NCBI RefSeq assembly: GCF_947623445.1
Contig: NC_135245.1
Coordinates: forward strand, 3,975,501 to 4,039,500
Direction: 5' to 3'
Origin: Clavelina lepadiformis
Lineage: Eukaryota > Chordata > Ascidiacea > Aplousobranchia > Clavelinidae
Length of the DNA stretch: 64,000 bases
The notes under the pieces are model-generated. The model did no database searches and had not been told where the DNA came from. It worked only from the letters and a program-made list of their open reading frames with translations. Below are positions 1-39,954 of the stretch, in pieces. The number at the start of each line of letters is the position of its first letter. Position 1 is the stretch's first letter. A program made the translations under genes and the position numbers.

Positions 1-1551
1 GGCAACTGACAACCAAACGTTGAAAGTTCAATCAACATGGCATTTGTGAAAATTTTATGTATGTAAGGTGTAAACATAGATGACTAATCTCAAAATAGCC
101 ATCTTTTCATGCCTATAGACATCCCTCATTGACCTACCTATTCTACCAGCAAATCTTGCCAGACTAAAAAAAGTTTTTAAATTCCTTTCAGCAGTAACAG
201 CAACAAAGAATTCCTCATCCTTCGCCATGTTCTCCAAGTGCATTAAAAGCGCAGCATGCACAGCTTTCATTTCTGGTGTCATGTTTTCATACTTTCTAAG
301 AGCGGCATAGCAAATTGAAACATCCTGCAAAAATGATTAGATTTTATTATTTTTGTTTTTCATAATACATAACCCATGAGTGAATATGAGCCTATGGTAT
401 ATCGAACAGAGTTCTGTAATCTGCTAACCATACATCATACTCACGGCTGGGCTTAGGCCAATGCAAGCGATGTGATTGCACTGGGCCCAGTACTACTTAG
501 CACCAAAAGAAAAATAATACTTTGGCTTTTATTTTGGCCAAATCTCAATGTTATTTGTATTTCTCAGTTTGTTTTTGATACAGGGTCCTGGTGAAATTAT
601 TCCACTAAGAAAAAGTTTAATGGGAGTTGATTTGCAAAGAGTTGATATGTGATTCATGTTAATATTTTTTATTATTACACTAATTTATATAAAATTGGCA
701 AGGGGTCTCGCCATCAGATCTTGCATGAGGGCTGGGCCGGCCCTGATCAGTGAGCATATTACCAATAGGTATCCTCTACTTGCTACAAATATCGGTAATA
801 TAAAATTGGGCAGGCTAAACTATTTCCTTAATAAACATATAGTGCAGTTGGTCATTATTTAAATTTTTTTAATCTTTATATCAAAATAAACCACATTCTT
901 GATAAACAAGGTAACATGATATCCTACCTTAGGAAAGAAGTCATTTATTCTCTTTTGAATAGAGATCAGAATGTGTTTTACAACAAAACTTTGCTCTGGG
1001 ATTTCAAGTTTTCCAATAGTCCACAACAGCCATGCCAGTTCAGTAGATTTCAAATATATCGATGCCACCATCATTTTCTGCAAAAATACTTGAAAATTTT
1101 CATTGTTTAATATAAGTTGTAAGAGATCTTCCTTGCAATCAAGATCATGATCATATGAGTCAATATGTTGGCTGAGTGCATGCATATACATGATAAACTC
1201 TTCATTCCAAAGCTTGTTAGAGTGGTGCATATCTCCGATTAAATTCAAAATATCATCCAAGCTAGCACAACCAGAAAGGAGTTCAGGTGTTGTTGTGGTG
1301 TCTTCTGGCTCATTAGGGCGTGACAGAAATATTTGCTTGTTGGCATAGTCAATCAACTCTGACACATTTTGAAGTGGAGGTGGGGTTAATTGCCGTGGAC
1401 AATAGAATGCAGCGGAAGTTGATAGCAATTTGCCATATATGTGGTTAACTTTCAATGTTTGTAGGTTTAAAAAATTCTTGAATGAATTTGTACTTGTACA
1501 TAGGACAAGCATCCGTCTTCGTGAAATGTACAATCGCTTTATAAACTCCAT
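1..1551 (-). CDS. FASTK-domain-like mitochondrial protein, N-terminal part (runs off left edge)
   Basis: Two coding exons are visible: exon 1 at 928-1551 (208 codons, phase 0) and exon 2 at about 138-324. Exon 1 ends at an AAG|gtagga donor. Exon 2 starts after a TTTTTGCAG acceptor and ends at a G|gtaggt donor, so the gene continues to the left. The N-terminus is basic and hydroxylated with few acidic residues (IKRLYISRRR), which fits a mitochondrial targeting peptide. The body is a run of amphipathic helical repeats such as ELAWLLWTIGKLEIP, resembling the helical repeats of FASTK/FASTKD proteins, which act in mitochondrial RNA processing. The diagnostic FAST and RAP domains would lie outside the window, so the call is a resemblance only. 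Another mitochondrial helical-repeat protein is possible. The start codon lies 6 nt after a strong 3' splice acceptor and 80 bp after the upstream micropeptide gene, suggesting the second cistron of an operon. Confidence 0.45.
442..744. mobile_element. probable degenerate hAT-type MITE in an intron
   Basis: The left end starts CACGGCTGGGC and the right end, read in reverse complement, starts CAGGGCCGGCCCAGCC. These are imperfect, GC-rich inverted ends of a hAT style in otherwise AT-rich intron sequence. The flanking 8-mers (atcatact and atcagtga) match only partly, so the target duplication is weak. It lies in the intron between the two visible exons of the FASTK-like gene. Confidence 0.35.
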
Positions 1552-1557
1552 GTTTAT

Positions 1558-1611
1558 CTAAAAATACAACCAAGGAACCAACCACAATATAGATTTGGCT
1601 TTGTATTTAAT
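1558..1611 (-). promoter_or_regulatory. candidate intercistronic trans-splice acceptor and poly(A) signal
   Basis: Read on the minus strand, the short gap between the micropeptide stop and the FASTK-like ATG contains ATTAAA (complement of 1606-1611), a poly(A)-signal variant. It then has a T-rich tract ending in TATTTTTAG (AG at 1558-1559), leaving a 6-nt leader before the ATG. An upstream poly(A) site followed by a bare acceptor is the layout of SL trans-spliced operons in tunicates. A cis-spliced 5' UTR intron is the alternative, but the donor would have to lie inside or beyond the upstream coding region. Confidence 0.5.
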
Positions 1612-1631
1612 ATCTTTAGCAGCATGAACTT

Positions 1632-1802
1632 TTATGTCACATCCAAACGTTTCTTTGTTTCCTCCAATTTTCGCTGCAAATAATCTCTTTTTGCTTGTAA
1701 CCACTTTCTTCGAAGATTTCCAAATTGGTATCCAGCTATAAATCCAAGGGCAAAGCACACAACCGAAAAAGTTACTAACTGTGCATCTTTAAACTCACCC
1801 AT
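1632..1802 (-). CDS. mitoregulin-like micropeptide, copy 1 (56 aa)
   Basis: This 56-codon single-exon frame starts MGEFKDAQLV and ends KRLDVT. It has one hydrophobic segment at about residues 9-25, then a strongly basic amphipathic helix (RRKWLQAKRD, QRKLEETKKR). Length, membrane segment position, RRR-type boundary and K-L-x-x-T-x-K-K-L-D ending all match human mitoregulin (MTLN, 56 aa), recalled from memory. Mitoregulin is an inner mitochondrial membrane micropeptide linked to respiratory complexes, lipid oxidation and calcium handling. A longer in-frame extension upstream exists, but this ATG is preferred because a TTGCAG acceptor sits 1 nt before it and because the length then equals the family length. 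Copy 2 agrees at 37 of 56 positions. The FASTK-like gene starts 80 bp downstream, probably in the same operon. Confidence 0.8.
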   Translation of the reverse strand: MGEFKDAQLVTFSVVCFALGFIAGYQFGNLRRKWLQAKRDYLQRKLEETKKRLDVT

Positions 1803-2294
1803 ACTGCAACATAAAAAGTAATTAATAAATAAGTCAAGAATAAACAAGACAATGATTCAATGAAATATGCCTCATACCATTCTCTACACTGCAAAGTAAT
1901 TATTCTCTACACTGCAAAGTAATTCAATTACTTCACAAAACTAGTAACCTTAATCTATAGCAATAAATAATCTAAAATGTTTAAGTAATAAATGAACAAC
2001 AAGAAATGTGAACTATGTGTACAGTTCAATAAAATTAAATAATCAAGCTGATTAATTAAACAATCAATCGATGGTCATCTATCTTCAGCAGTGTGACTAC
2101 ATTTTAATGAACATTATCTGAGAACATGAAACGTTTTCACTAAAACCCACCCAATAAAATCATTGCAAAAGTTCTAAAGGATCATAAAGAGTATCATTAG
2201 ACTACCATGACCTATTCCAAGTTAAAGTAGACAAAAAGAACTAAACAAAATCGAAGAGTAATCAGATGAGCAAAATGCAGCAAGCTTGACAGAT
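1803..2294. other. spacer between the two micropeptide genes
   Basis: AT-rich sequence with no credible reading frame. A TTGCAG acceptor abuts the copy 1 start. The only other structure is a perfect 23-bp direct repeat in two adjacent copies at 1879-1901 and 1902-1924. Confidence 0.6.
1879..1924. repeat. 23-bp perfect tandem repeat, two copies
   Basis: The unit begins attctctacactgcaaag and is repeated back to back without mismatch. It lies upstream of mitoregulin-like copy 1 and could be replication slippage or a duplicated regulatory site; nothing in the sequence decides between these. Confidence 0.8.
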
Positions 2295-2465
2295 TCAAGA
2301 AACGTCCAATTTTTTGTTGGTTTCCTCGAGTTTCCTTTTCAGAGCATCTTGCTTTCTTTGTAGCCACCTGCGACGAATGTTCCCGAATTGATATCCTGCG
2401 GCAAACCCAACAGCAAAGCATGCTATTGAACATGCTACCAGTTTAATATCTTGCCATTCACCCAT
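2295..2465 (-). CDS. mitoregulin-like micropeptide, copy 2 (56 aa)
   Basis: A 56-codon frame starts MGEWQDIKLV and ends NKKLDVS. It has the same design as copy 1: a hydrophobic segment (residues about 9-25, with CFAVGFAAGYQ), then RRRWLQRKQD and KRKLEETNKK. Aligned without gaps to human mitoregulin from memory, about 19 of 56 positions are identical, including the RRR boundary, K-L, T and K-K-L-D. Identity to copy 1 is 37/56, concentrated in the membrane segment and basic tail, with many conservative changes, so both copies appear to be under protein-level constraint. It lies 492 bp upstream of copy 1 on the same strand, a tandem duplication. A possible acceptor (GTGTAG) lies about 23 nt before the ATG. 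At 56 codons it is shorter than usual gene-calling limits. Confidence 0.8.
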   Translation of the reverse strand: MGEWQDIKLVACSIACFAVGFAAGYQFGNIRRRWLQRKQDALKRKLEETNKKLDVS

Positions 2466-3161
2466 AATGGATTAGCATAATCAAACCTACACGAATAATT
2501 GAGTATTACATACATGTTACCACTGAATAAGTTAACTACTTATGCACTAATTGGAGCAAGATAAGAATAAAATGAGTAAGAAATGCACCAGTAAGACGTA
2601 AAAAGACTTCAGTCAAAAGAGCAGGACTAGCACACATTGCTGCATATATGTAAACATGGATATTTCAGCATCTAATCATACTAATGAAGTTTAACAATGA
2701 ATATTGAATCTAAGCTTTGTTTTTCATCACTACCACAGCACGACTGTCATGAATTGAATAAGTCTCTCATTTAAATATAAAACTTTAAAATACAGATATA
2801 TGCAATTCAAGCACAGTGTTTATAATGTGACTTGAGGCAAGGTCACAGTATGAGTTACCAATAATTAATTAAAATATACTTTACTCCAAAAACTCTTGCA
2901 TGCACACACAAAACACAGTATACATATAAGTATCACAAGTACAACAACCACAGTAAATATATTTAGTTCCAGTGTAAAAAATTTCATAAAAATCACACTG
3001 TTGACTGTACATACAAAATCTCTGAAAATTGAAGGAATGTGTAATTATGAATTCTAGATATATGAAGACAATAGAATTATGAGTTTAATACTATTACTAT
3101 TACACAATAAAAGCACGAAAGTCAAATGAAGACAAAAATTGTCCTTCAATAAAACATTTGA
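2466..3161. other. gene-free AT-rich spacer
   Basis: This spacer lies between the CCDC157 stop and the mitoregulin-like copy 2 start. No reading frame, tRNA or recognisable repeat was seen. It must hold the CCDC157 3' UTR and probably the promoter of the micropeptide genes. Confidence 0.5.
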
Positions 3162-5237
3162 CTATGTCCAAGGTTTTAACAAAGCTCCTTTGCTTCGTGA
3201 GTTTGGTGTTAAGGCAGCTCTATTAGTCCTTTGCCCTGCTCCAGAAAAAGGGCGTAAAGGTGAGACATTTGGGCTTGTCTTCTTTTCAAAAGAATTCCCA
3301 CTTTGAGAGTGAGCATTGAACAAATATGTATTTTCTCTTCTAGCAGGTGCACCACCTTCCTTTTCGGACTTCCACTGCTCTTGTGATGGAGATTTCTTCC
3401 ATAACTGAACTGTCTGAGCTTGGTACATGCTCTCTGAAGATAAAGATTCAGCTTCTGAAGCAAAATCCAAATCTGAGTTTGATCTCGAGGAGATCTTACT
3501 AAGAGTCTGCATCAGATTAACATTTTCTTTTTTAAGAATGTCAATACGAACATTGTTGGCTTTTATTTGTTGTTCCATGTCTATGATAATATCACCAGTG
3601 CCAGTGGGATTTATACTAGCTGTGTTTTGTAAATCTGGATAAGACACAAGAAGTTTTTCTCGCTCCGTGAACTTTTCAACTTGCTCTTCCAGTCTTTCAG
3701 CAGTCAACCGCAAATCATTTATGGTCTTTTGCATGGTTTCTTTTTCCTTTTCCACAACAGAGGATTGCTCTTCCAGGGATCTCAGTTTGGATGTTTGCTC
3801 ATTTACAGTGGCACTTTCCCGCTTCATTTTTTCTGCTTGTTCATCGTGCTCTTCTTCGACAACAGCCAGTCTCTCCCTCAGTGCTTCACATTCCTCATTT
3901 AATTCATCAAAGCGTATAAGAATGCTCTGATGTTTTTTTTGCACAACCTCTTCACGATTATATATGGTTTTACTGCGGCTTATTTCTTTTTCAAGGTGGA
4001 TTTTTGTAGTGTTTAGTGTATTTTCAGCACTTCGCAATTTTTCTTGCAATTCTAAAGCTACAGTTTTCATTCGAAAAATTTCTGCTTGACACTCTTTTCT
4101 TTCTTCAGTTTCATGTTTCAGTTGAGAGTTAACATTATCCAAACAAATCAAAGCTTTTCGTCCCTTGAAGAGTTCTTCTTTTGAGTCCGACATTAAAGAC
4201 TTTAAAGTGGAAACTTCTTCACGCAATTTTTCATTTTCATCAGACAGGCAACTAATGCACTTTTGTAAAGACTTTTCATTCTCCTTAAACCTGTATTCAT
4301 ATTTTCTTTGCTCTTCCTGAAATTCGACCAGCTTTCTGCCACTGATTGATTGCAACCTGGCAATCTCTTCTTTGAATTTTTGTTCGTTTTTCTCCGCGGT
4401 AGAAACATTTTGCTTTAGAGGGTTGATTTGCTTCATTAGTGAATCCAAGTGACGATCAATGCGAGACAAATCTCTCTTTTGTAAATTTTTCCACCGAGAG
4501 AGCTCGGCAATTGACATCAGTGAAGAATCTGTCTGCTTGGCAATGTAATCTTCAAGTGCCGTGGGCAGTCCTTGGGATTTGCAGACATGAACCAAGGATT
4601 TTCCAACTTCATGAAGACAAGTTTGAGTCCTATCACAAACTTCACAAACAACATAAGCTGTTTCACTTGTTTGGCTGCTGCAATGAATCATAGTTGCAAA
4701 AGGTTTGGAAAGCGCACCGCTTGAATCAGATGCATCACTTGCAACTGAATCCGTATCACTTGATTTTGATTTTCTTATATGTGCAGGTTTCCGAGTATTG
4801 CCTAACTGTTCCTTCTCTATTTGGTTAGCAAATTGCTTCAATACTTTTGCGACCTGTGCCAGCCTTCCCCAACTTCTCTTGACAGTTAGACCAGCAGATA
4901 TCGAGCGCATACTGCTGGACTTAGGAGATGACTTAACACTAAGTAAGATCTCATTGAAATACGTGAAACAATGAAAAAGAAACAAAAGTCTATCAATTAG
5001 TAAATCATAAAGCATGACATGAACGACTTCATTTCTTTCTTCATCAAGCTCTTCATATGCATATTCACTTAGCAATCCATCTACGTCAACATCCATTGAG
5101 TGTTTATCTGGAAATTTCCATGATTGATACTGCACACTTCCCACTCGAGAAATGATTTCTACAATTGTATCCTGCACATCTTTTATGTCATGTTGCAAAC
5201 TCTCAAGACAATACTTTGTACCCAAAAGTTGTGTCAT
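3162..5237 (-). CDS. ccdc157: coiled-coil domain-containing protein 157
   Basis: This is a 691-residue uninterrupted frame. The N-terminus (LLGTKYCLESLQHDIKDVQ, then VQYQSWKFPDK) matches the start of vertebrate CCDC157 (LLGSQACMDSL..., FPSWKFPD). GLTVKRSWG, the SQTSETAYVVCEVCD segment with paired cysteines, and TEREKLLVSYPDL (family: ERERLLVAFPDL) also match in the right order. Residues about 245-545 are a long heptad-rich coiled coil, followed by a serine-rich disordered tail. Length is close to the vertebrate protein (about 750). In mammals CCDC157 is needed for spermatogenesis and has been linked to Golgi traffic; the role here is inferred from that. The gene seems to have lost all coding introns. 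Confidence 0.9.
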   Translation of the reverse strand: MTQLLGTKYCLESLQHDIKDVQDTIVEIISRVGSVQYQSWKFPDKHSMDVDVDGLLSEYAYEELDEERNEVVHVMLYDLLIDRLLFLFHCFTYFNEILLSVKSSPKSSSMRSISAGLTVKRSWGRLAQVAKVLKQFANQIEKEQLGNTRKPAHIRKSKSSDTDSVASDASDSSGALSKPFATMIHCSSQTSETAYVVCEVCDRTQTCLHEVGKSLVHVCKSQGLPTALEDYIAKQTDSSLMSIAELSRWKNLQKRDLSRIDRHLDSLMKQINPLKQNVSTAEKNEQKFKEEIARLQSISGRKLVEFQEEQRKYEYRFKENEKSLQKCISCLSDENEKLREEVSTLKSLMSDSKEELFKGRKALICLDNVNSQLKHETEERKECQAEIFRMKTVALELQEKLRSAENTLNTTKIHLEKEISRSKTIYNREEVVQKKHQSILIRFDELNEECEALRERLAVVEEEHDEQAEKMKRESATVNEQTSKLRSLEEQSSVVEKEKETMQKTINDLRLTAERLEEQVEKFTEREKLLVSYPDLQNTASINPTGTGDIIIDMEQQIKANNVRIDILKKENVNLMQTLSKISSRSNSDLDFASEAESLSSESMYQAQTVQLWKKSPSQEQWKSEKEGGAPARRENTYLFNAHSQSGNSFEKKTSPNVSPLRPFSGAGQRTNRAALTPNSRSKGALLKPWT

Positions 5238-6953: not shown

Positions 6954-7646
6954 CTGTAGAGTATAGACTATAGAGGACCTGGATGATGACTCACAATCTT
7001 ACTCTGACGTCACACATCTGGCCGTCTATGGAGTAACAGAATTTTTAACATTATTTACGGTTTTTCTTGGTTTTACCACGAGTAGCTGCAAAAAATCTAA
7101 ATCTTATCATGATTAAAAAAAGGCGATCGCTAATGAGTAGTCGCGCGCTTTTGAGTATCATTTAAGCCAGGGTTATCACCCAATTACTGATATATTAGTC
7201 TACTTATGCCTTATAAGCAATAGCCTTTTTCAATGCAATATCGTATGACTGAATAATGTGTATATATTTGATCAAAAAAGCAATATTATTCATTGAAGAA
7301 GAAGTTATCCTGTTGGTTATAATTTTTTATATTTGTCGCCATTCTACAGTTTACAAAACTTCGGCAGCTATGCTATCTTATAGAAGATCTAACAGCACAT
7401 CTCATTGAACTCAAATACAAAGATGGACGGTAAAATCAATAATCAGCCGTAAAACAGCGAAATCTTGACAAATATACAACAAAGCTACAAATTGGGAGTG
7501 TTCACAAGCTCTCTGAGGGAAGCGAAACTAACAAAACATGAACATAAAATGTGTTGTAAAATTATACAAACTTTAAAACGGGTTTTAGTAAGTAAGGACG
7601 TTTTTCAACACCTTTGAATCGGGGTTAAAAATTGTTGCAGATGAAT

Positions 7647-9602
7647 CTACACAGTATTTATCGCTATGTCAACGTCATTTTTGTACGCTACATTTTCTTT
7701 AGCAACAGAAGTTATAGCAACTTGTCTTCTGGCATCATCCAGTTTGTAGACTGTTTCATCATCGCCCAGCCAACCATGTCTTCTGCCTACGATCATTACT
7801 AGGCCCATAGTGATCGAGTATACCAGCTGAAAGACCCCGTAGAGGAATGGAAAGAGGACAGTCTTAACCAAAACAGCCGGGATTGCTCCGAACGAGATCT
7901 GAATAATTGAGCCCGCCACCTGAACGTTTTGTAGAGCGATCTCGACCGCCACCGTACGGCGACATCGATTGTCAACCTCCAGACAAGGCAGAAGTGCTGA
8001 CAGAAACCCAATGCCAAATGCCAGTATTGGCATAAGACATGCAACCTAAACATTGAGCAGTTAAATGACAGGAAGTACTTAACAGGATTAAACGATTTCA
8101 AATCAAAAAGAGACTTTTATATGAACATCTTTCTTTCGCGATCATTTATTAAATCGCCATAACCTAAAGTTGCTTACCATACGAAATAAGATTTAATAAA
8201 TTTTGAAATAACTGACCAAAAGAGCATATTGGTTGCAAGATAGTATTTACCAGAGCATTAAAAAATAAATACCACAATTTGCTTCCACGTAAATATCCAA
8301 GGTATTTTCCGCAGAATACTGGTAACTATCACAGATATAATGATAAAAAGCGTCAGGGTGCCGACACATATCTGTACAGGATAAAAAAATAACGCATATA
8401 ACGTAATTCATGACGTCCATTAAATTCACGTAAGTCTAATAACTAAAAACCATATCATTCGTCTTAATGTTTTAGAAATAATATTGATGGTTTATCTTAT
8501 ACTTTGGTAACAAGCTCAGCTTTTTTGGGAAATTTCGTCCGAACTGTCATACCAAGAGCAAGAGGAAGAATTAAGCTTGCCAAGAGAATACCTAAGATAT
8601 AAATAAGCTTGAATTCAACGCATTCTGGGTCCAGAATGCTCGATAATTAATCACTGAAAACACAATTACGTGCCTAACTTGTCAAACGGAACCAATAAAT
8701 TCACGGGTAGCTCTTCGACTTTGCTGAATATGAAAAGCCACATTGGCATTGTGCCAAGGGACAATAAGGTGGTTGTGGCAGTCATAGCGACGCTTAAAAG
8801 AAAACAGAAAATGTCAAAACATGTCGTCGTTGAAAGGCGGTAAAACTGCAAAAGTGTCAGTGGCAGACATTTTCAGTCACAGCTGTCTGAATCTTGTACC
8901 TTAGGTCGATTACTCCTCCGGTCCAAAAGACTACGAGATTACTAATGGTGCCACCAGGGCAACTTCCCTGGATCATAACACCCAAAGCTTCCGCCCGAGG
9001 CATTTGGAAGATTTTGGTGAGAGCCCAGGCCAGTGCTACAAAGAAGAAGGGAATAAAATAAAAATTTTATGAACATATCATCCTGATTGACTGTAGAATA
9101 TATTTTATAAATTAAGTGCTGTGGATAGCCTACTCACGCGGAACACAGGCTAACTGTATAAAAACACCGAGCGCGTAAGCATGTGGTTTTTTCAGGTACT
9201 TGAGTACGACCTTGTAGTCAACGGTCGCTCCGATGCAAATCATACCAAACGATACAAATATTCTATAATGAAGAGCAGAAACAAATAAATGTGCTTGAAA
9301 TTTTTTGCAACAATGTCTTGGTTCACTGTGCCACTTACGTCGTCAATATGAATACGATTAATTCACGTTGCATGACCTCGGGTGAGATGTTGCTTGTCGA
9401 CTTAGAAGCTGTGTTATTCGGAGAAAGTGTTGTAGGAAAATCTATGTAATTTGTAAAAAATTTTATCACGTAAAAGTCAAACTCTCTAACAATAAAGTCT
9501 CGACCCGCGTCCAATCATTTACACATTTATTACAATTATTCATTATGAATTACCGTTATTTTACTTACCTGTTGTCAAAGAAAAATTGGTAAAAGACGCC
9601 AT
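7647..9602 (-). CDS. SLC10 family sodium-dependent cotransporter, copy 1
   Basis: Eight exons join in consistent phase: 9569-9602, 9339-9441, 9138-9262, 8900-9035, 8670-8792, 8503-8638, 8273-8371 and 7647-8045, giving 384 aa. The extracellular N-terminus has several Asn-X-Ser/Thr sites. GSCPGGTISN (residues 110-119) matches the ASBT/NTCP GCCPGGTGSN sodium-site segment. CRRTVAVEIALQN (about 280-292) matches the family CRTVAxExxxQN segment, with the sodium-coordinating Glu (287) and Gln (291) retained. Length and multiple membrane helices fit SLC10A1/A2/A6-like plasma-membrane carriers of bile acids or sulfated steroids; the substrate is unknown. Exon 5 seems to end in GGC at first sight, but the donor is AC|gtaatt 4 nt later. 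The gene is divergent from the GT32 gene of the same unit, with about 4.2 kb between them. Confidence 0.85.
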
Positions 9603-12600
9603 CTTTTGAATTAAACTTGGTTTAACCAAATTAGTATTCAACCGGTGAACTTATTTTTGTAGGCCAACTCTCAAATCAAAAAATTTTACATATACTACCC
9701 TAGAGTTCGTGGATACTGCAAAACTCAAATTTTTAGCAAAAGATTTTTAAAACTAAAACCGAACTGAAGCTCTATAAAGATAAAACGAACAAATTGAAAT
9801 TGATATGGTTTTTTAAACTGTTTCTTAACTCTGCACTGGAAAATTTTACCGTTTTGTAAACTAGACCATAGCCATCGACAAGATTTTTCGTCTGTAATTT
9901 TGATTTGTAAAATATTATATGAAGTTAAGGTTAGGGTAAACAATTCTCTTTGTGCAAAGTTGAAGAAGGATAGGTGTTATTGTATAAAGCGGTGTTTACT
10001 CTGAACAGGTCATTATTCAGAATGTCGGCAAAAACAGCAAGAAGCTTTGACAACTTGGCACACGTTGTGTTGATTGTTTGTAGGCTGTCATCCGGTAAGC
10101 CGAGAAAAGCCTTCAATCATTATGCCGTCGTTACGCAGTCTTGGGGACAAATAACTGCGAAAACCAGACAAATAAGTGCGAAATGCCTCGGCCAAATATT
10201 TACAACCTTGAATACAAAAAAAACGTCAAGCAATTGTTTGTGTGCAAGACTCCACGTCATGGTGTTCTTAATGGAAAATGGTGATGACATCATAAACTAG
10301 TTGGAAAAAAGTAAGTTAGCCTAAATGCTTGTTTTCTTCTTTCAACAGATTGACCATGGCTGATCAGCTGTTATTTTGACTACGACGTTATGCCATTCAA
10401 TTCTGTTTCTAGCCCTCGTTAACTGCATGAGGATTTCTTGTGTGAATATTTTGATGCTGGCGATGTATCTGAGTTTTGACCTTCATCTTCACCTCTTCCG
10501 TCTGTTTTGTTGACCATAAATTTTTATCACTTTTATACTTAGCCAATAAAAGTGACTACTAAACAAATAGCAAACAAAGCTTCGCCATGTTTTCTCTTTT
10601 CTGAAAAATGCAAAATAAACATAATGTCTAAACTCTAAAGGCATCCAACAGTCTCAGAAATGGCTTGTTTCCTACTGAGCTTTTTCACTATAAAGTTGTA
10701 GTTTATAGCTAAACCGATCCAATAATATTTGCCTTAATTACAAAATGACTCACCATACAGAGCTACAGAAATATCTGATCGGGGATAAAACATTGCGAGT
10801 GAAAACACCCACAGAGGTTATCTAATGTTTAACTTAGGTTGGCAAAATATTTTGGCTGGTTCACATGCTTATGATCAGAAAAAAAACAGACATTTTTTGT
10901 GTTTTTCCAATTTGCAAAAACAGTAAGAGAACAGTGATGAAGCGAACAACAAGTGAGGAAACTGTTTTACGCTGAATCTCCGCTGGACGTCCTGATAACA
11001 TTGACCATACCTGACACTCCAGCAGTTAACTTTAGAACGACCGAGGGGGTCGAAACCGACCTTTAGCCAAATTTGTACAGCTATTTTGCTAATGTTTGAA
11101 ATCGGTGCGATTTCAAACTTTCAGTCGCTTCCTAAGTAGGTTATTTATGAGCGGTATGCTAACACAGAGTTTTTTTCAAAACGTTATTTAGTTTACCCAC
11201 AATTACTACGTATACCTACAACCACCGTAAGGTTCGATAACGACCTTTATAAAAATCTACCTTTAAGATCTACCTTCAATCTACCTTCTAAGGTGGCCAG
11301 CAGCGCATTTGCGAACATACGCGATTACAATGCGAAACATACATTAGCCATTCACAGGGCAAAACACCTTTCCATTTGTACATACACATCTTAACTGTGG
11401 TAGTTGCCTTAATCTAACCATTTGTAGCGGTTTACATCATTTTCGCTGTTGCTTGCATGCTTGGTAATATCTTTCCAGTTTGGTACCATTGATTCATATT
11501 GCTTGCCATAGATTTACTGACTGACTGCCAATGTTAATACTGTGCCTCATTGCTCGGTTCTTCAGCATTTAAGCCATACACACTTAATTAACTCTTAGAC
11601 TTTGTTGAGTTTGAATGTACCCGAATTTGTCATCGCCCGTAATCATTTGTAAGATGTTCCTTCTTCATTTTTCATCATATGTAGCTTATTAACCATTGTA
11701 GTGTGATCGTGCTATGATCTTTCTTAATAAGTGTTGTGCAGACTTGGTGTTCATGTCAGTTACCTCTTTTTGTTACCTCTTTTCATGTCAGTTACCTCTT
11801 TTTGTGTACCAGTCATGTCTGGCTTGCTGCCGCCGAATTTGTCCGTTTTTTTATCAGAAAATAACTTCATTCCACTGTGTTATTCTGGGGCCGGTATATA
11901 ACGTCCAAATTAGCATTAGTGTTTATTCCAATTATATGATTTAAGTGATAATGATTTATATGATTTTGTGTCGCCAAAAACTCCAATTAGCTTTGTCATT
12001 TCGTAACTAAACTCGTGTGTCTTTGTCTTGAATTCCTTTCTTTAGAACTGATCAGCCGTGACATGCTCGTTAACACTCAAATTCTTTGTGTTAGCACATC
12101 AGTTTAATCCCAGCCAATTTAGTATGTATTACAGTTGTTAGCCTGACTTGTTTAAGGAGTGTTGCATGCAGTATGATGAGTTAGTTGCCATTCAACCTGT
12201 TGTAATGCCTATATTTGTTAGCCACGTGATTGAGATCAAATTTACTAGTATTGCCGATTATTACTATTGTTTGCAGACTGACAGGGTAGTGTTCATTTCC
12301 TTACTTTGGCCTTGCTCGTACTTTCAGATGATAAGTAATATTACCCTGGGTTATGTACTTATAGAAATCACACACATACCACACAAACTGTTCACTAGCT
12401 GTTCTGTTCGTCTGTTCGAGTGATCATTTCTTTCTACCCGTTCAATATAAGACTTTGAAGAAATCCGTGTGCATTTCTAATATCCAGGGTAGGGTGGCAT
12501 TCAGGCCTTGCTGGCCCGAAGGACACCCCTTAGGTCAGGGGCGGGCAATTTTTTCGGTCGGCGGGCCGGATTCCTGAATCGATACATTAATCGTGTATTT

Positions 12601-13718
12601 ATCCACCTATGCAAGGAATAAATCGTATTTAATGTAAACTTTAAGTTTTAAGCATAGAGACCAAAAACAGTATTTAATGAATTTATTAACGATTAATGTA
12701 CTTCAATAGCTGCTGAAGTCAAAACTGAACTGCTAAACTGAACTGCTGAACTGTCTGCGGGCCGCTCAAAATCCCGTCGCGGGCCGGGTCCGGCCCGCGG
12801 GCCGTATTTTGCCCACCCCTGCCTTAGGTGATCGGCATCTATAAATTTGCCGGTTACATATAGTTTTCAAAGGGTACGCAGGTTTAGATGCAGTAACTGG
12901 CCAAACCAAGCGTTTGACTTTTTCAAAGGATTTGCTGTAGATACCCGTACTTTGACATAAATTGCAAATAATGAAGTCTGCTGCATAAAATTTGCACTGT
13001 TTTTTTTCTAGTAAGTACAAATACTTTAACTTAACAAAAGAGTCGACGTAACAATGTGTAAAAATGTTTAGACTGTTATATTTTTGCTTACTCTGGACAG
13101 GGATTGACAGCGTCTAAAATCGGTCAGTTTAGCTACTGTTGGTTAGATATATAACCTATACTTTTCGTTAAAGCAACGTGACAAATGTTCAATATGAAGT
13201 AGAGTTAAGTTTAGCTTGTGGCGCATAAACAATGGAAGGTTGAAAATGAAAAATAAATTTAATTCTATCTGCAATAAACATTCTGGCTTGCACTCTTTCC
13301 CCCTAGTTTCTTGGCCCAAACGTTTTTGTTACTTAAAAGGCTTTGCGAGACCCAAGCAAGAAAGCATTGCTCTACTTATAGATTCAAATATATTATATAT
13401 AAGCTATGTAACACGTATACGTGCTATATAGTGGAAACACGCAATGTGAAAATGCAACTATATATTTTTCTTCACTATACTGTAGCCTATATACTTAAAT
13501 AAAAAAGCAGAATATTGGATATACACTATATATGTATATGCACTCTATAAGGTTTAATTTTATTTTAATTTTCTTGGTATACACAAAATTCCGCAATTAT
13601 CACCTTACTTCATCAGGTAGCCTATAGGCCTACCTAGAGGTTATATTATTTATTTATTTTGTGTATCATTGATCATATTTATACACAAAAATATATTTAT
13701 CTACATATTTTTATTGCA
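9603..13718. other. shared upstream region of the divergent SLC10 and GT32 genes, unit 1
   Basis: About 4.1 kb with no credible gene. It contains the hAT MITE at 12536-12821 and a short hairpin (gtttgaaatcg/cgatttcaaac) near 11093-11118. Small frames here persist in the other units only because the duplication is recent. Confidence 0.5.
12536..12821. mobile_element. hAT-type MITE, GC-rich, 286 bp (unit 1)
   Basis: The ends CAGGGGCGGGCAA and (complement of right end) CAGGGGTGGGCAA are inverted repeats. The perfect 8-bp target duplication ccttaggt lies at 12528-12535 and 12822-12829. No coding capacity. The inner right arm is very GC-rich (ggccgggtccggcccgcggg). The same insertion with the same duplication is present in unit 2, so it predates the segmental duplication. 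Confidence 0.9.
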
Positions 13719-13785
13719 GCTGAGTAGGCCGAGCTTTTTTCGAACATCGAATTCCTTTACGCTCGTTTATTTCGCGCACAAAGCG

Positions 13786-15589
13786 ATGCAGCGAGGAAGA
13801 TTAAATAAAAAATTCTTGAGTCGGGTTTTTCTAATCTTGCTCATTCCTCTTTGTGTGTTTCTTCATTTAATTTTCTATTCGGTTCGAAGTGCATGGATTC
13901 TTTCTGCTGTAAATCACTCATCGGAAAGGTTGAAAAAAACTGAGATGGAAGATCCTATCTCAACTGCATTTTCTGGCTTGCCAAGCGAGTTTGTCAAACA
14001 AGGTTGTCAAAAAACAAACAAAAATCAAAATTACACTGTTTGTGATCATTTACCATACAGCGAAATTAAATGCGGCAAGTTGGCGGCAAGGCGAGATTTC
14101 GATGAAAACGGAATAAAATACAAAGTGCCAAACATAGTTCATTTCATTTGGTTGGGTCAACCCGCTTTCGAGTATTACAATTACCTGGCTATCCGCTCAA
14201 TAGCGAGCATTCAACAACCTGAAAAGATCACCATTTATTATGACAAAGCAAAGCCAAGTGGTGAGTATACTTATTCTCAAATTACGATTTTTATTGCAAA
14301 CAAACCAGTTTTGTGCATTTCCTACACTTAGGGCCGATGTGGGAAAGGACTGCACGAGAAGTACCGTGTTTGGAGTTCAAACAAATAGCTCGGCCAACCA
14401 GTGTTTTGGGCAAAAAGGTAGGAAAATAAACGTTTTACATGGTGTATACTAATGCGCTCTACTGCATACAGAAACGTTCGTAAACGTTAAAAACTGATAT
14501 GATTTATTTCACTAGAGGTAACACCTTTTGGCAAAGATATTAACTGAAGAAATCTTTAGTATATATAGGCTATAGTTAATTTCGCGCTTTATAACAAAGC
14601 ATTTAAGCTTGTTGATGAAAGTGTCATTTACTTATAAACGGGCTATCCTATACCGAAAGGCATACTTTGTACATGAAAAACGTTCAAATTTCTTTACTTT
14701 AGATTTCCCATACTGTTCCCCAGACCGATGCAGCTCGTTTGCAAATCTTAATCGAGAAAGGAGGAATTTACATAGACGGTGACGTCATAACTTTGCGAAA
14801 CTTTGATTCACTACGAAAATTCTCTGTAACTATGGGCAGGTAGCATACAGTTTTTAATCAAATTGTTTGTCAGGTGTTATGAATACAGTGTGAATTGTAA
14901 AAACATCTTTGCTGAATTTTATATACAGGTCCCTTGCCGACATCATCAGCATGGGCATTACATTGTCAGAACCAAACGCACCATTCCTTCAAGCGTTTTA
15001 TCATCAATACCCAAGCCATTTTGAAGATCTCCCCGGAAAAGACTGGAAGTTTGCCACCTACTATTTAATGACGTTTTACAGAGAAAATATGGAAAAGGTT
15101 TATCTAAAATTACCTGGTTTTGTTGTCCATGTTGCTGCCGATGGCGAATAGCCTACTGGTATACTTAATTTTTAAACCCAACTTTTATGGTCTATAATCT
15201 ATATCCATGTATTCTTAAATGAATTTCATATGACATAGGATTGGATTCACATCGAAGATACATCAATGCAAAGACCCAATTCCGCTATAAGCCATGATGG
15301 CAAAACCGCTACCACATTCGATCATTTCGACTTGACCGGCCATTACTTCCTGCATTTGCACCCCACCACGGTATTTGGGACCATCATTGAAAGAAATCAA
15401 TTTTTCTCCCAGAAAGATGATCAGATACGGACTGCAGATACCACTTATGGCGAAGCAGCTCGGCTCGCGGTATTCAACAGGTCTGATTTAATCTTTAAAA
15501 GTGGTGAAACGCCACGTAATCGGGTGCCAGCAAAAAAAATAGTTCGCCTTGAACCAATACAACCAATCAGGCGAACAACACAAAATTAG
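13786..15589 (+). CDS. GT32-like type II membrane glycosyltransferase, copy 1
   Basis: Five exons join in phase: 13786-14260, 14332-14417, 14703-14839, 14929-15097 and 15239-15589, giving 405 aa. There is a short cytoplasmic tail, one membrane anchor (about residues 14-33), a stem with Asn-X-Ser/Thr sites, then VPNIVHFIWLG (114-124). IEKGGIYIDGDVI follows, whose DGD (212-214) is the DXD nucleotide-sugar/metal motif of the Gly_transf_sug (GT32) fold. WIHIEDTSMQRP fits the conserved segment following the catalytic region in metazoan relatives. The topology suggests a Golgi enzyme; donor and acceptor are unknown. Exon 4 seems to run to a stop at 15151, but the AAG|gtttat donor at 15097 joins in phase to GATTGG at 15239. 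A TTATTGCAG acceptor 67 nt before the ATG suggests trans-splicing or a 5' UTR intron, and supports this ATG over the upstream in-frame ones. Confidence 0.82.
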
Positions 15590-18500
15590 TAAAACGAATT
15601 TTCAAAAGAACACAAAATGACCGCGTTCCGATATGACTGGCTTGCAGCTGTAGACTGAACATCTTACGGTGTTGAAGTCGAATTTTTCGTAATTCGATAT
15701 GAAAAGCTTCAAAACACAATCGCATGTCCTCAGAACTACAGATTCTTAAATAACTAAGCGATGCGATTTTTGTTTTTTGTCGCCGTGAAATCTATAATTT
15801 TGTAACATGAAAACGATTCCTAAAACTGGTAAACTTTCTTATTAAAATATATGCGTGTTAGTATATAACTTAAGTAAATCTTTTCAATATTTTTTGCTAA
15901 AGTATCAATATTTTTGATATTTCTCATTTACATAAAGAAGACGTGACTCCAAGAAAAATACGAGTCGTTCATCGAAACTACAATTTCCACGTTTGCTTTT
16001 ACAACTATTCTATTAAATAGCTTCTATTTTTGGGGGCGATGTGTTTTTTTCGATTCATTAATTAACATTAAACTTTTTTATAGCGGTGCTTATATTTTTT
16101 ATATATCTGATCATCTTTTATTTAATCGCTTAATTCACTGACTCTAGATTCCTCAGTGTTTCACTTTTACAATGTTCTGTTGTTTAAGCATCAGCCTGGT
16201 GACTTATAATTTAATCTTTACATAAGAAATAATTTAAAATTAAATGAGTAAGTTGAAAGTTATCTTCTCGACAATGTCAAGTTTATTCTAGATGCGGGAA
16301 ATTTCACCACCAGTAGAAGGCTGTACAACGTTATAGCCTTGACTATAACCAAAATAACGTTATAGCATTCTATAGCTTATAACTCATGCAATCGGTATAT
16401 GGACTTTAGTCGTTTGTATGACAGTTGTAAGAGTTCCAAATCATCATACTTAGTCTTAAAAACGTACCACTATATAAAGGTGTTTCAAACGCTTTGTGGT
16501 TATCGCTATTTATTTTGTCTTGATGTTTCTGTTATGGCGGCAAGAGTAAACAACTTACATAACATCATGATTTACTCTAGACTGAGTTATCCAGGTTTAA
16601 ATACTTTATAATATACTTTTTTCATACTGTTTTGTTGGTATTGGTAGTTATAAAAGCTGTAAATATGTGAAATTGTCAATGTGTGGAAATCGACAAGATT
16701 TGAGTGTAAGGTGTTTGATAATAATGAAGGCTGCTGTTGTGATCAGTGTAACCGCTTGCGGTGGATATCATAGCACCTACTGTTTATCAGACATTGTTGC
16801 TGCAAAATTTGTAGCCTTACAATATATAGGTCTATATATAGTGATAAAAATAAAAAATAATTTTGAGGATAAATAGCCTCCAACTGGTAGTGAATAATAA
16901 ATATGGCTTATTGCTTATGTAAAAATAAATGTGCGTCATAGTAAAAGTGTGTATCACTCAAATACCACCAAGAAATACGTTTATTCTTGGAATATACAGA
17001 TCATTTACCTTGTTTACATTTACTGATGTGAAACACAATCAGTCATGCCCAACTGAAATTGAAATATATTCCTACTTATGTTGTTAAAGGGTCTTTTATA
17101 AAAATGCGTCCTGTTATAGTTTTTGAAATCGTTACCGTCGATTATTACCAACACAAACTAAGGCTATTGGCAGTGGTAGGCTTAGGCTTGGGGAAGCCCT
17201 AGGCGCGGTATGGCGCAACTTAAATTTGGTCGCCCCCAAATTACAGAAGACGTAGCAAACTATCCTAAGGTGAGTCAGGGGACCATGGTACCCAGAAAAA
17301 TGTTTAATTTACATGCATGCACATTAAAATGCAGAAAACTTGCTTTTCTTTCAAAAAACAACTGTCTGCGATTTGTTTGTACTATCGAGCGTCTTATACC
17401 GCAGATGTTTGCCAGCAGAGAACACAACTTTTTCTTTGTCTTGGCAAAATGTCTTAAATCGTGTGAGCGTTTGAGAAGTAAGCTATATGAAAGTAATCTC
17501 AAAGAAAGATGGAACCAATTCACGGAGATTAAATTTACACAACTTTCCCCTATTCTAAATACAGTTTATGCAGCTAATTAGCATGAACCAGTGAATGACT
17601 CATGACCTGAAAAAGTGCGACTAATTAGCAATAATATTCCTAAGCAATGTTTGTTTTAGCGCGTATAAGTTACAGAAATAAGGAGGCCAAAGGCGATCGT
17701 CTCACCCTAAAGCCACTGCTGACTACAGATCAACACAGTGTACCGGACCGAAACTATCCATGTGCTTCATTTTCATGTTATGGTAACCTGTATAAACAAA
17801 CCTTAACTGGACATTTAATACGGCTTTTTGTATTTTTACTAGCCCAAGCCAAAAAACCGCTTTGTTTACATTAACGAGGTTTACACTGTCTCTATCTACT
17901 ATCTATACTATAGTTTTAATAAAATCATAACTGAAGGCTTGCCTGAATCAACGTCGAAAGAAGGTAGCCTACTGTTCAGCTGGACTCTAGACCGACTTCA
18001 TAAACATACATATCGGGAAGTATAGAATGGTTGGGAGGCTATAGGCAGTAAATTATTATCATTATTTTCATCGTTTTTTACTTATTTAAGATAGCGGAAG
18101 CTAACTAAGACAATGCTACATATTGCTATGTCTTTCTATGGTGACATAACTGTAACTGATAAATAATATTATTAGTATAAATATATAATTTACGATAACT
18201 TTAAAAAACCGACAGATATAATCATCTTTTGACGTATATAAGTTTTTTGTAATATACACCCAAAGTAGGTAGTCCCATCTAGGCCTCTACTGTAATAGCT
18301 GATCTGTACAATACGCATTTTGAAGAACCATAAAACGCTGCTTTAGTTTCTATTCTATTATATGGCAACCTAAGCAAAGCTTTATTCGAAAACAAATATT
18401 TTACGCTTTTTTTTTTAGGGGACAAGAAATATACTTGACTGAAACAAATCTACTCATTTCTCGTTTTTTGCTTCTTCACCTGAATCCTTATAGACCTACT

Positions 18501-18637
18501 GTTGTTGGGGTCAAATGATTATTATTGATGTAAGCCTTACACTGCATGGAATTTCCGCTGGACCCTTATTTCACCAGTCTCATTGCACGAGTGTCAGTTT
18601 GGAAATTCTTCAAATTACAGTCACTTTGGGATTTTTT
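15590..18637. other. gene-free 3' part of array unit 1
   Basis: AT-rich. A 123-codon frame at 17210-17581 has no recognisable domain and no splice context. The block from about 17165, with words like ggggaagccctaggcgcgg, has the feel of an unclassified dispersed repeat. Confidence 0.4.
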
Positions 18638-19058
18638 CAATGCAATATCGTATGACTGAATAATGTGTAGGGTATATATTTGATCAAAAAAGCAATATTA
18701 TTCATTGAAGAAGATGTTATCCTGTTGGGTATAATTTTTTATATTTGTCGCCATTCTAAAATTTACAAAACTTCGGCAGTTATGCTATCTTATAGAAGAT
18801 CTAACAGCACATCTCATTGAACTCAAATACAAAGGTGCATGGTAAAATCAATAATCAGCCGTAAAACAGCGAAATCTTTACAAATATACAACAAAGCTAC
18901 AAATTGGGAGTGTTCACAAGCTCTCTGAGGGAAGCGAAACTAACAAAACATGAACATAAAATGTGTTGTAAAATTATACAAACTTTAAAACGGGTTTTAG
19001 TAAGTAAGGACGTTTTTCAACACCTTTGAATCGGGGTTAAAAAATGTTGCAGATGAAT

Positions 19059-21020
19059 CTACACAGTATTTATCGCTATGTCAACGTCATTTTTGTACGC
19101 TACATTTTCTTTAGCAACAGAAGTTATAGCAACTTGTCTTCTGGCATCATCCAGTTTGTAGACTGTTTCATCATCGCCCAGCCAACCATGTCTTCTGCCT
19201 ACGATCATTACTAGGCCCATAGTGATCGAGTAGACCAGCTGAAAGACCCCGTAGAGGAATGGAAAGAGAACAGTCTTAACCAAAACAGCCGGGATTGCTC
19301 CGAACGAGATCTGAATAATTGAGCCCGCCACCTGAACGTTTTGTAGAGCGATCTCGACCGCCACCGTACGGCGACATCGATTGTCAACCTCCAGACAAGG
19401 CAGAAGTGCTGGCAGAAACCCAATGCCAAATGCCAGTATTGGCATAAGACAAGCAACCTAAACATTGAGAAGTTAAATGACAGGAAGCACTTAACAGGAT
19501 TAAACGATTTCAAATCAAAAAGAGACTTTTATATGAACATCTTTCTTTTGCGATCATTTAATAAATCGCCATAACTTAAAGTTGCTTATCACACGAAATA
19601 AGATTTAATAAGTTTTGAAATAATTGACCAAAAATGTATATTGGTTGCAAGATAGTATTTACCAAAGCATTAAAAAATAAATACCACAATTTGCTTCCAC
19701 GTAAATATCCAAGGTATTTTCCGCAGAATACTGGTAACTATCACAGATATAATGATAAAAAGCGTCAGGGTGCCGACACATATCTGCACAGGATAAAAAA
19801 AATAACGCATATAACTTAATTCATGACGGCCATTAAATTCACGTAAGTCTAATAACTAAAAACCATATCATTCGTCTTAATGTTTTAGAAATAATATTGA
19901 TGGTTTATCTTATACTTTGGTAACAAGCTCAGCTTTTTTGGGAAATTTCGTCCGAACTGTCATACCAAGAGCAAGAGGAAGAATTAAGCTTGCCAAGAGA
20001 ATACCTAAGATATAGATACGTTTGAATTCAACGCATTCTGGGTCCAGAATGCTGGATAATCACTGAAAACACAGTTACGTGCCTAACTTGTCGAACGGAA
20101 CCAATAAATTCACGGGTAGCTCTTCGACTTTGCTGAATATGAAAAGCCACATTGGCATTGTGCCAAGAGACAATAAGGTGGTTGTGGCAGTCATAGCGAC
20201 GCTTAAAAGAAAACAGAAAATGTCAAAACATGTCGTCGTTGAAAGGCGGTAAAACTGCAAAAGTGTCAGTGGCAGACATTTTCAGTCACAGCTGTCTGAA
20301 TCTTGTACCTTAGGTCGATTACTCCTCCGGTCCAAAAGACTACGAGATTACTAATGGTGCCACCAGGGCAACTTCCCTGGATCATAACACCCAAAGCTTC
20401 CGCCCGAGGCATTTGGAAGATTTTGGTGAGAGCCCAGGCCAGTGCTACAAAGAAGAAGGAAAAAAAATAAAATTTTTAAAAATGTTATAAACATATCATC
20501 CTCATTGACTGTAGAATATCTTCTATGAATCAAGTGCTGTGGATAGCCTACTCACGCGGAACACAGGCTAACTGTATAAAAACACCGAGCGCGTAAGCAT
20601 GTGGTTTTTTCAGGTACTTGAGTACGACCTTGTAGTCAACGGTCGCCCCGATGCCAATCATACCAAACGATACAAATATTCTACAATGAAGAGCAGAAAC
20701 AATTAAATGTGCTTGAACTTTATTGCAACTATGTCTTGGTTCACTGTGCCACTTACGTCGTCAATATGAATACGATTAATTCACGTTGCATGACCTCGGG
20801 TGAGATGTTGTTTGTCAACTTAGAAGCTGTGTTATTCGGAGAAAGTGTTGTAGGAAAATCTATGTAATTTGTAAAAAATTTTATCACGTAAAAGTCAAAC
20901 ACTCTAACAATAAAGTCTCGTTCTGTGTCCAATCATTTACATATTTATTACAATTATTCATTATGAATTACCGTTATTTTACTTACCTGTTGTCAAAGAA
21001 AAATTGGTAAAAGACGCCAT
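19059..21020 (-). CDS. SLC10 family sodium-dependent cotransporter, copy 2
   Basis: It has the same eight-exon structure as copy 1, from the ATG at 21020 to the stop at 19059. Splice sites are conserved, with slightly better acceptors in places: exon 6 reads CCAG where copy 1 reads CGAG, and exon 7 reads GTGCAG. The sodium-site segments (GSCPGGTISN and VEIALQN) are unchanged. Amino-acid changes against copy 1 include Ser-to-Leu and Ser-to-Asn in the N-terminal tail, MICIG to MIGIG, Leu-to-Arg in EFKLIYI, and GFLSALL to GFLPALL. No disabling change was found. The changes fall mainly in the tail and membrane-segment edges, so transport is probably retained. Confidence 0.85.
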
Positions 21021-24000
21021 CTTTTGAATTAAACTTGGTTTAACCAAATTAGTATTCAACCGGTGAACTTATTTTTGTAGGCCAACTCTTAAATCAAAAC
21101 ATTTTACATATACTACCCTAGAGTTCGTGGATACTGCAAAACCCAAATTTTTAGCAAAAGATTTTTAAAACTAAAACCGAACTGAAGCTCTATAAAGATA
21201 AAACGAACAAATTGAAATTGATATGATTTTTTAAACTGTTTCTTAACTCTGCACTGGAAACTTTTACCGTTTTGTAAACTAGACCATAGCCATCGACAAG
21301 ATTTTTCGCCTGTAATTTTGATTTGTAAAATATTATATGAAGTTAAGGTTAGGGTAAACAATTCTCTTTGTGCAAAGTTGAAGAAGGATAGGTGTTATTG
21401 TATAAAGCGGTGTTTACTCTGAACAGGTCATTATTCAGAATGTCGGCAAAAACAGCAAGAAGCTTTGACAACTTGGCACACGTCGTGTTGATTGTTTGTA
21501 GGCTGTCATCCGGTAAGCCGAGAAAAGCCTTCAATCATTATGCCGTCGTTACGCAGTCTTGGGGACAAATAACTGCGAAAACCAGACAAATAAGTGCGAA
21601 ATGCCTCGGCCAAATATTTACAACCTTGAATACAAAAAAAACGTCAAGCAATTGTTTGTGTGCAAGACTCCACGTCATGGTGTTCTTAATGGAAAATGGT
21701 GATGACATCATAAACTAGTTGGAAAAAAGTAAGTTAGCCTAAATGCTTGTTTTCTTCTTTCAACAGATTGACCATGGCTGATCAGCTGTTATTTTGACTA
21801 CGACGTTATGCCATTCAATTCTGTTTCTAGCCCTCGGTAACTGCATGAGGATTTCTTGTGTGAATATTTTGATGCTGGCGATGTATCTGAGTTTTGACCT
21901 TCATCTTCACCTCTTCCGTCTGTTTTGTTGACCATAAATTTTTATCACTTTTATACTTAGCCAATAAAAGTGACTACTAAACAAATAGCAAACAAAGCTT
22001 CGCCATGTTTTCTCTTTTCTGAAAAATGCAAAATAAACATAATGTCTAAACTCTAAAGGCATCCAACAGTCTCAGAAATGGCTTGTTTCCTACTGAGCTT
22101 TTTCACTATAAAGTTGTAGTTTATAGCTAAACCGATCCAATAATATTTGCCTTAATTACAAAATGACTCACCATACAGAGCTACAGAAATATCTGATCGG
22201 GGATAAAACATTGCGAGTGAAAACACCCACAGAGGTTATCTAATGTTTAACTTAGGTTGGCAAAATATTTTGGCTGGTTCACATGCTTATGATCAGAAAA
22301 AAAACAGACATTTTTTGTGTTTTTCCAATTTGCAAAAACAGTAAGAGAACAGTGATGAAGCGAACAACAAGTGAGGAAACTGTTTTACGCTGAATCTCCG
22401 CTGGACGTCCTGATAACATTGACCATACCTGACACTCCAGCAGTTAACTTTAGAACGACCGAGGGGGTCGAAACCGACCTTTAGCCAAATTTGTACAGCT
22501 ATTTTGCTAATGTTTGAAATCGGTGCGATTTCAAACTTTCAGTCGCTTCCTAAGTAGGCTATTTATGAGCGGTATGCTAACACAGAGTTTTTTTCAAAAC
22601 GTTATTTAGTTTACCCACAATTACTACGTATACCTACAACCACCGTATATAAGGTTCGATAACGACCTTTATAAAAATCTACCTTTAAGATCTACCTTCA
22701 ATCTACCTTCTAAGGTGGCCAGCAGCGCATTTGCGAACATACGCGATTACAATGCGAAACATACATTAGCCATTCACAGGGCAAAACACCTTTCCATTTG
22801 TACATACACATCTTAACTGTGGTAGTTGCCTTAATCTAACCATTTGTAGCGGTTTACATCATTTTCGCTGTTGCTTGCATGCTTGGTAATATCTTTCCAG
22901 TTTGGTACCATTGATTCATATTGCTTGCCATAGATTTACTGACTGACTGCCAATGTTAATACTGTGCCTCATTGCTCGGTTCTTCAGCATTTAAGCCATA
23001 CACACTTAATTAACTCTTAGACTTTGTTGAGTTTGAATGTACCCGAATTTGTCATCGCCCGTAATCATTTGTAAGATGTTCCTTCTTCATTTTTCATCAT
23101 ATGTAGCTTATTAACCATTGTAGTGTGATCGTGCTATGATCTTTCTTAATAAGTGTTGTGCAGACTTGGTGTTCATGTCAGTTACCTCTTTTTGTTAACT
23201 CTTTTCATGTCAGTTACCTCTTTTTGTGTACCAGTCATGTCTGGCTTGCTGCCGCCGAATTTGTCCGTTTTTTTATCAGAAAATAACTTCATTCCACTGT
23301 GTTATTCTGGGGCCGGTATATAACGTCCAAATTAGCATTAGTGTTTATTCCAATTATATGATTTAAGTGATAATGATTTATATGATTTGGTGTCGCCAAA
23401 AACTCCAATTAGCTTTGTCATTTCGTAACTAAACTCGTGTGTCTTTGTCTTGAATTCCTTTCTTTAGAACTGATCAGCCGTGACATGCTCGTTAACACTC
23501 AAATTCTTTGTGTTAGCACATCAGTTTAATCCCAGCCAATTTAGTATGTATTACAGTTGTTAGCCTGACTTGTTTAAGGAGTGTTGCATGCAGTATGATG
23601 AGTTAGTTGCCATTCAACCTGTTGTAATGCCTATATTTGTTAGCCACGTGATTGAGATCAAATTTACTAGTATTGCCGATTATTACTATTGTTTGCAGAC
23701 TGACAGGGTAGTGTTCATTTCCTTACTTTGGCCTTGCTCGTACTTTCAGATGATAAGTAATATTACCCTGGGTTATGTACTTATAGAAATCACACACATA
23801 CCACACAAACTGTTCACTAGCTGTTCCGTTCGTCTGTTCGAGTGATCATTTCTTTCTACCCGTTCAATATAAGACTTTGAAGAAATCCGTGTGCATTTCT
23901 AATATCCAGGGTAGGGTGGCATTCAGGCCTTGCTGGCCCGAAGGACACCCCTTAGGTCAGGGGCGGGCAATTTTTTCGGTCGGCGGGCCGGATTCCTGAA

Positions 24001-25140: not shown

Positions 25141-25207
25141 GCTGAGTAGGCCGAGCTTTTTTCGAACATCGAATTCCTTTACGCTCGTTTATTTCGCGCA
25201 CAAAGCG

Positions 25208-30000: not shown

Positions 30001-30059
30001 CTCATTGCACGAGTGTCAGTTTGGAAATTCTTCAAATTACAGTCACTTTGGGATTTTTT
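27012..30059. other. gene-free 3' part of array unit 2
   Basis: Matches the 3' part of unit 1 almost base for base. Nothing gene-like was seen beyond the same unexplained frames. Confidence 0.4.
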
Positions 30060-39950: not shown

Positions 39951-39954
39951 CTTT

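Follow-up and report, generated by a model that had tools for sequence, protein, structure and literature searches.

Two adjacent mitoregulin-like microprotein genes in the tunicate Clavelina lepadiformis and their probable origin by an old tandem duplication

How far back the history of mitoregulin reaches is the question raised by two short frames in the genome of the ascidian Clavelina lepadiformis. The protein is described as a vertebrate one in PMC11920140, and a review states, with reference to the discovery papers of 2018 and 2019, that mitoregulin is lacking in invertebrates. A search of the open-licence literature gave no reports of mitoregulin in Ciona or any tunicate, and the lamprey mentions in the mitoregulin papers examined concern other genes. 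Protein databases may contain tunicate entries that are unannotated or were named automatically, and invertebrate members may already be included in PF22002, the Pfam model of the family. The DNA analyzed here, called the window below, is a stretch of 64,000 nucleotides (contig NC_135245.1, positions 3,975,501 to 4,039,500 of the forward strand), and coordinates are those of the window unless stated otherwise.

Both frames, the downstream copy MTLN-A (1632..1802) and the upstream copy MTLN-B (2295..2465), are intact 56-codon open reading frames, running from ATG to stop on the minus strand, which makes B the upstream gene. Read in the direction of transcription, this strand carries first a 691-aa coiled-coil frame (5237-3162), then B (2465-2295) and A (1802-1632), after which a further gene starts with its first exon (from 1551). 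The initial annotation had described adjacent frames of 56 codons sharing 37 residues and carrying a membrane segment, an RR(K/R)W boundary and a K-L-E-E-T-x-K-x-L-D ending. The coordinates, the lengths and the 37 identities among 56 residues in an ungapped alignment were all borne out, the boundary and the ending were found in both copies, and hydrophobic peaks on the Kyte-Doolittle scale are located at residues 9-27 of A and 7-25 of B. When the residues of the two peptides were shuffled, none of 100,000 trials reached 37 identities, the largest number being 16.

The assignment to mitoregulin, proposed in the same annotation, was upheld by the search of Pfam-A. For both peptides the best match was MTLN (PF22002), whose curated cut-off is 27 bits: A scored 54.5 bits (E 1.1e-14) and B 47.3 bits (E 1.9e-12), and no other family exceeded its own cut-off. 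Both copies matched the family again in a repeat search. Of the 56 positions of the model, the match covers 4-55 for A and 3-55 for B. A profile scan of the whole 209-Mb assembly revealed only two places above the cut-off, namely A and B (53 and 45.8 bits), and a protein search of the genome with A returned the same two places and nothing else at E up to 10; as these scans read the genome exon by exon and score best candidates only, they could overlook a copy that is split by introns or has diverged further. Three further genomic places under the cut-off, with E of 2 to 7, were taken as chance matches and not as distant copies. Among solved structures nothing credible was found (best E 0.47 for A and 0.073 for the A/B alignment), and Rfam gave no matches in the window at gathering thresholds. 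Bacterial or viral origin of the pair was rejected, as scans with the A/B alignment gave 75 pattern matches on viral contigs and 59 on genome contigs, of which none was confirmed by tblastn.

At the nucleotide level, A and B are identical at 109 of 168 positions, the identity at codon positions 1, 2 and 3 being 36, 46 and 27 of 56 codons, and the same codon is used at only 17 of the 37 common residues. A dN/dS comparison between the copies, suggested as a check in the initial annotation, gave by the Nei-Gojobori method a pS of 0.87, which is past the correctable range, versus a pN of 0.21 (dN 0.25). Maximum likelihood estimated dN at 0.21 and dS at 18, the latter value meaning only that synonymous change is saturated, and Fisher's test of synonymous versus non-synonymous change, on rounded site counts, yielded p 1.1e-12. 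In neutral simulations with 59 random substitutions, 37 residues were kept in 0 of 20,000 runs (mean 22.0, SD 2.5, largest 34). The likeness is limited to the coding frames: alignment of the flanks was no better than that of shuffles (upstream 25 versus a shuffled mean of 26.0, downstream 19 versus 19.4), and the 492-bp spacer between the B stop and the A ATG (1803..2294, minus strand; one ATTAAA and no AATAAA) gave no alignment beyond shuffles with the region upstream of B. Saturated synonymous sites, a pN of 0.21, the outcome of the neutral runs and the unalignable flanks together indicate an old pair subject to purifying selection; it is the protein rather than the DNA that has been kept in both copies over a long time. 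Recent duplication is ruled out by the saturated synonymous sites and the unalignable flanks.

Comparison with the human protein was made using a working sequence of MTLN, nine residues of which correspond to an siRNA target given in PMC11899852. Over 56 positions aligned without gaps, this sequence is identical to A at 20 positions and to B at 19, and in none of 20,000 shuffles preserving the make-up of each half was it matched as well as by A or B; 17 residues are identical across A, B and this human sequence. A and B are closer to each other than either is to the human protein, which fits a duplication within the tunicate line, this comparison being based on 56 residues and one outgroup sequence and not constituting a tree. 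Mammalian and zebrafish mitoregulins are 71% identical according to PMC7214441, where mouse LEMP is also reported to rescue a zebrafish LEMP knock-down. Judged by sequence, the known mitoregulin family is extended beyond vertebrates, with a duplication, and the pair could be restricted to the Clavelina species studied.

One might argue that the frames do not encode mitoregulin at all, but a small membrane protein similar to it by convergence, such as one of the LapA type, which is matched through a shared layout of hydrophobic helix and basic coil. LapA_dom (PF06305) is indeed second in Pfam, with 17.7 bits and E 0.0034 for A and 19.4 bits and E 0.00099 for B, and the MTLN profile also gives sub-cut-off matches in the E. 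coli control genome. However, both LapA_dom scores are under the cut-off of 28 bits for that family; MTLN exceeds them by 36.8 (A) and 27.9 (B) bits, it alone is above its cut-off, its match covers nearly all of the 56-position model, and no tblastn-confirmed relative was found on prokaryote or viral contigs. A rival small membrane family scoring higher than mitoregulin had been named in the initial annotation as the finding that would speak against it, and in Pfam MTLN proved to be the best. We consider convergence very improbable. Another view, that one of the copies is a decaying pseudogene, could be derived from the lower score of B than of A against MTLN (47.3 versus 54.5 bits), but both frames are intact, their synonymous change is saturated while non-synonymous change is low, and a neutral copy at the A/B divergence gained a stop in 18,553 of 20,000 simulations with the same 59 substitutions. 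Decay of either copy is thus hardly credible.

We assign a probability of about 0.87 to the reading that A and B are genuine tunicate mitoregulin genes, formed by old tandem duplication of a gene from the tunicate-vertebrate ancestor, and that their products are likely single-pass mitochondrial membrane microproteins. In the proposed mechanism, an ancestral mitoregulin gene would have been inherited from that common ancestor, and the old tandem duplication would have followed. Each product would most likely span the mitochondrial membrane with residues about 7-27, as a predicted single pass, and contain a glycine zipper composed of G20, G24 and G28. These glycines make two overlapping GxxxG steps in both A and B, of which the human MTLN sequence used has the first. 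As the same zipper glycines are present in both copies, A and B probably form homo- and hetero-oligomers. The basic helix, from RR(K/R)W on, would lie on the membrane surface, putatively binding acidic lipid (cardiolipin) and partner proteins; residues 29-56 carry a net charge of +6 in A as well as in B. An N-terminal transmembrane segment together with a positively charged C-terminus is given as a mitoregulin feature in PMC11920140. AlphaFold2, supplied with the two-sequence alignment of A with B, predicted A as a single continuous helix (2-55) with a mean pLDDT of 80 and a pTM of 0.37, though such a lone predicted helix proves little.

By analogy with what has been reported for mammalian Mtln, A and B would tune fatty-acid oxidation and respiration. 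The mammalian protein, according to PMC11920140, binds cardiolipin, HADHA/B, CYB5R3 and others, self-oligomerizes, and has been placed in the inner mitochondrial membrane or, in a later study with split GFP, in the outer one, with its N-terminus in the intermembrane space; both its localization and its partners are described there as disputed even in mammals. For the Clavelina pair we infer that the genes are transcribed and are expressed by trans-splicing or from an operon, and that their products are mitochondrial, oligomerize and bind lipid.

A separate problem is how the two genes might be expressed. The Ciona spliced leader with its donor, ATTCTATTTGAATAAGGTAAG, was found with at most one mismatch at 1503 places in the whole genome (827 forward and 676 reverse), and the reversed control pattern at 0 places in the same genome. 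The 100 places listed out of these 1503 were all without mismatch, and 97 of them lie on the contig that holds the window, C6. The listed places at 12139467-12233776 of this contig form a tandem array of spliced-leader RNA genes, with 92 of 96 steps equal to 745 bp, and the 21-nt stretch of leader plus donor is identical in the 100 listed places. In one leader copy (L015) the sequence that comes next is GTAAGTCAATCTGAGCTTTTG, close to the Sm-binding AGCUUUGG quoted in PMC7986045, where ATTCTATTTGAATAAG is given as the single leader of C. intestinalis, with at least 670 gene copies. Presence of a Ciona-type leader in the same genome agrees with the remark in the initial annotation that the DNA came from an apparent tunicate; taken on its own, and assuming that the leader is used by no animal outside the tunicates, it makes a tunicate, most likely an ascidian, very probable.

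The acceptor-like TTTTTATGTTGCAG (1804..1824, minus strand), which ends one base before the ATG of MTLN-A, is a candidate acceptor for cis splicing or for spliced-leader trans-splicing; a site as good as this occurs within 25 nt upstream of 138 of the 2328 ATGs in the window. Before MTLN-B there is the weaker ATTCGTGTAG (2487..2507, minus strand), ending 21 nt from the ATG, whose score is reached or surpassed at 281 of 2328 ATGs, so that as a putative acceptor it offers weak evidence. The 80-bp gap from the A stop to the next ATG on the same strand (1552..1631, minus strand) contains ATTAAA and the acceptor-like TATTTTTAG, which ends six bases before that ATG and whose score level is likewise attained at 138 of 2328 ATGs. 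No acceptor-like site was found by the same scan before the ATG of the upstream coiled-coil frame. A perfect two-copy 23-bp repeat is present upstream of MTLN-A (1879-1924), each copy containing the minus-strand TTACTTTGCAG, a duplicated acceptor-like sequence. Ciona operons are operationally same-strand gene pairs with under 100 bp between them, as stated in PMC2760879; measured on frames and not on transcript ends, the distance from the A stop to the next ATG is 80 bp, and the 492 bp from the B stop to the A ATG is outside this definition unless untranslated regions fill the spacer. The 80-bp gap, together with acceptor-like sites before A and before the next ATG, makes an operon with trans-splicing plausible for A and its downstream neighbor, as far as can be judged from sequence.

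This neighbor, a possible operon partner, is represented by an open reading frame at 859..1551 (minus strand) that holds its first exon, with a donor inside the frame as the probable exon end; the gene continues past the window start, into L008. Neither its single frames nor a hand-joined four-exon product had a Pfam match, and the joined product gave three weak matches only against PDB (best E 0.13, SART3). A by-eye guess that the gene is FASTK-like was abandoned when the FAST_1 search came out empty, though its control also gave nothing. The 691-aa coiled-coil open reading frame upstream of B (3162..5237, minus strand) had no Pfam match at E 0.01; we take it to resemble CCDC157. Elsewhere, a 238-aa frame at 6649-7365 of L008 (minus strand) looks by eye like a piggyBac-type transposase, and the window contains a segmental tandem duplication (7226-34127) whose step is about 11.4 kb and in which 7226-22691 corresponds to 18633-34127 (98.6%) and 7226-11269 to 30055-34127 (96.0%). 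Frames repeated in it are found at 7647, 19059 and 30481 (minus strand), 13621 and 25043 (plus strand), and 17186 and 28608 (plus strand). Pfam matches above cut-off to GINS subunit PSF3 (39330-39956) and to the UTP6 C-terminal domain (35645-36370, minus strand) were also obtained.

Expression of A and B might be shared by splicing, either within one gene, whose common upstream non-coding exon would be cis-spliced to the acceptor before B or to the one before A as alternative coding terminal exons, or through an operon transcript that also covers the downstream gene and is resolved by spliced-leader trans-splicing; this proposal concerns the mode of expression only and is compatible with the best explanation. 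It would account for the acceptor-like sites that precede B, A and the next gene, for the distance between A and that gene, which lies within the Ciona operon definition, and it is consistent with the occurrence of the Ciona leader in the genome. On the other hand, B is preceded by a weak acceptor, the sites in front of A and of the next gene are equalled before other ATGs at the frequency given above, and the B-A distance exceeds Ciona operon gaps unless untranslated regions fill it, so we treat shared splicing as possible, with the balance somewhat against it. Alternatively, the locus could be bicistronic in the manner of sloth1/sloth2, with one transcript containing both frames and the paralogs acting as obligate partners with non-redundant roles. 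A and B are in tandem on the same strand, homologous and of equal length, and there is no AATAAA in the gap between them; in PMC9681215, Drosophila Sloth1/2 are non-redundant paralogs produced from one transcript, and the sea-squirt homologs reportedly have a similar bicistronic architecture. Nevertheless, the same source gives 5 nt between the Drosophila frames against 492 bp here, and the ATTAAA in the gap, with the acceptor-like site directly before the A ATG, points to separate mRNAs, which makes this arrangement unlikely. Similarly doubtful is a more elaborate version of the preferred reading, according to which mitoregulin predates the tunicate-vertebrate split and is represented here by two co-regulated, trans-spliced paralogs with an extended glycine zipper, forming mixed membrane oligomers whose activity is set by the A:B ratio.

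If A and B are genuine tunicate mitoregulin genes, as we favor, such clear copies would date the origin of mitoregulin to the tunicate-vertebrate ancestor or earlier and would separate the protein from vertebrate-specific traits. Tunicates would then offer a small experimental animal group for probing its disputed basic role, and the 17 residues common to A, B and the human MTLN sequence used provide a shortlist of the positions likeliest to matter functionally.

Among known systems, LapA proteins are generally similar to A and B in layout, with a hydrophobic stretch followed by a basic coil, and the LapA domain (PF06305) is the second-best Pfam match of both, below its cut-off in each case. 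Sloth1 and Sloth2 (human SMIM4 and C12orf73) are, like A and B, adjacent paralogous microproteins with one predicted transmembrane segment each, and are mitochondrial; unlike A and B, they share 27% identity and, in Drosophila, are separated by a 5-nt spacer on one bicistronic mRNA (PMC9681215). This family was set apart from A and B by its name. The closest likeness is to vertebrate mitoregulin (MTLN, also MOXI, MPM or LEMP; PF22002), which has the same 56 amino acids and one N-terminal transmembrane segment, and whose human sequence, as used here, shares the RR(K/R) boundary and a basic C-terminal helix ending in K-L-x-x-T-x-K-x-L-D. A and B differ from it in that their host is outside the vertebrates, in that they form two tandem copies, and in possessing G28, the third zipper glycine, which is present in both of them and absent from the human MTLN sequence used.
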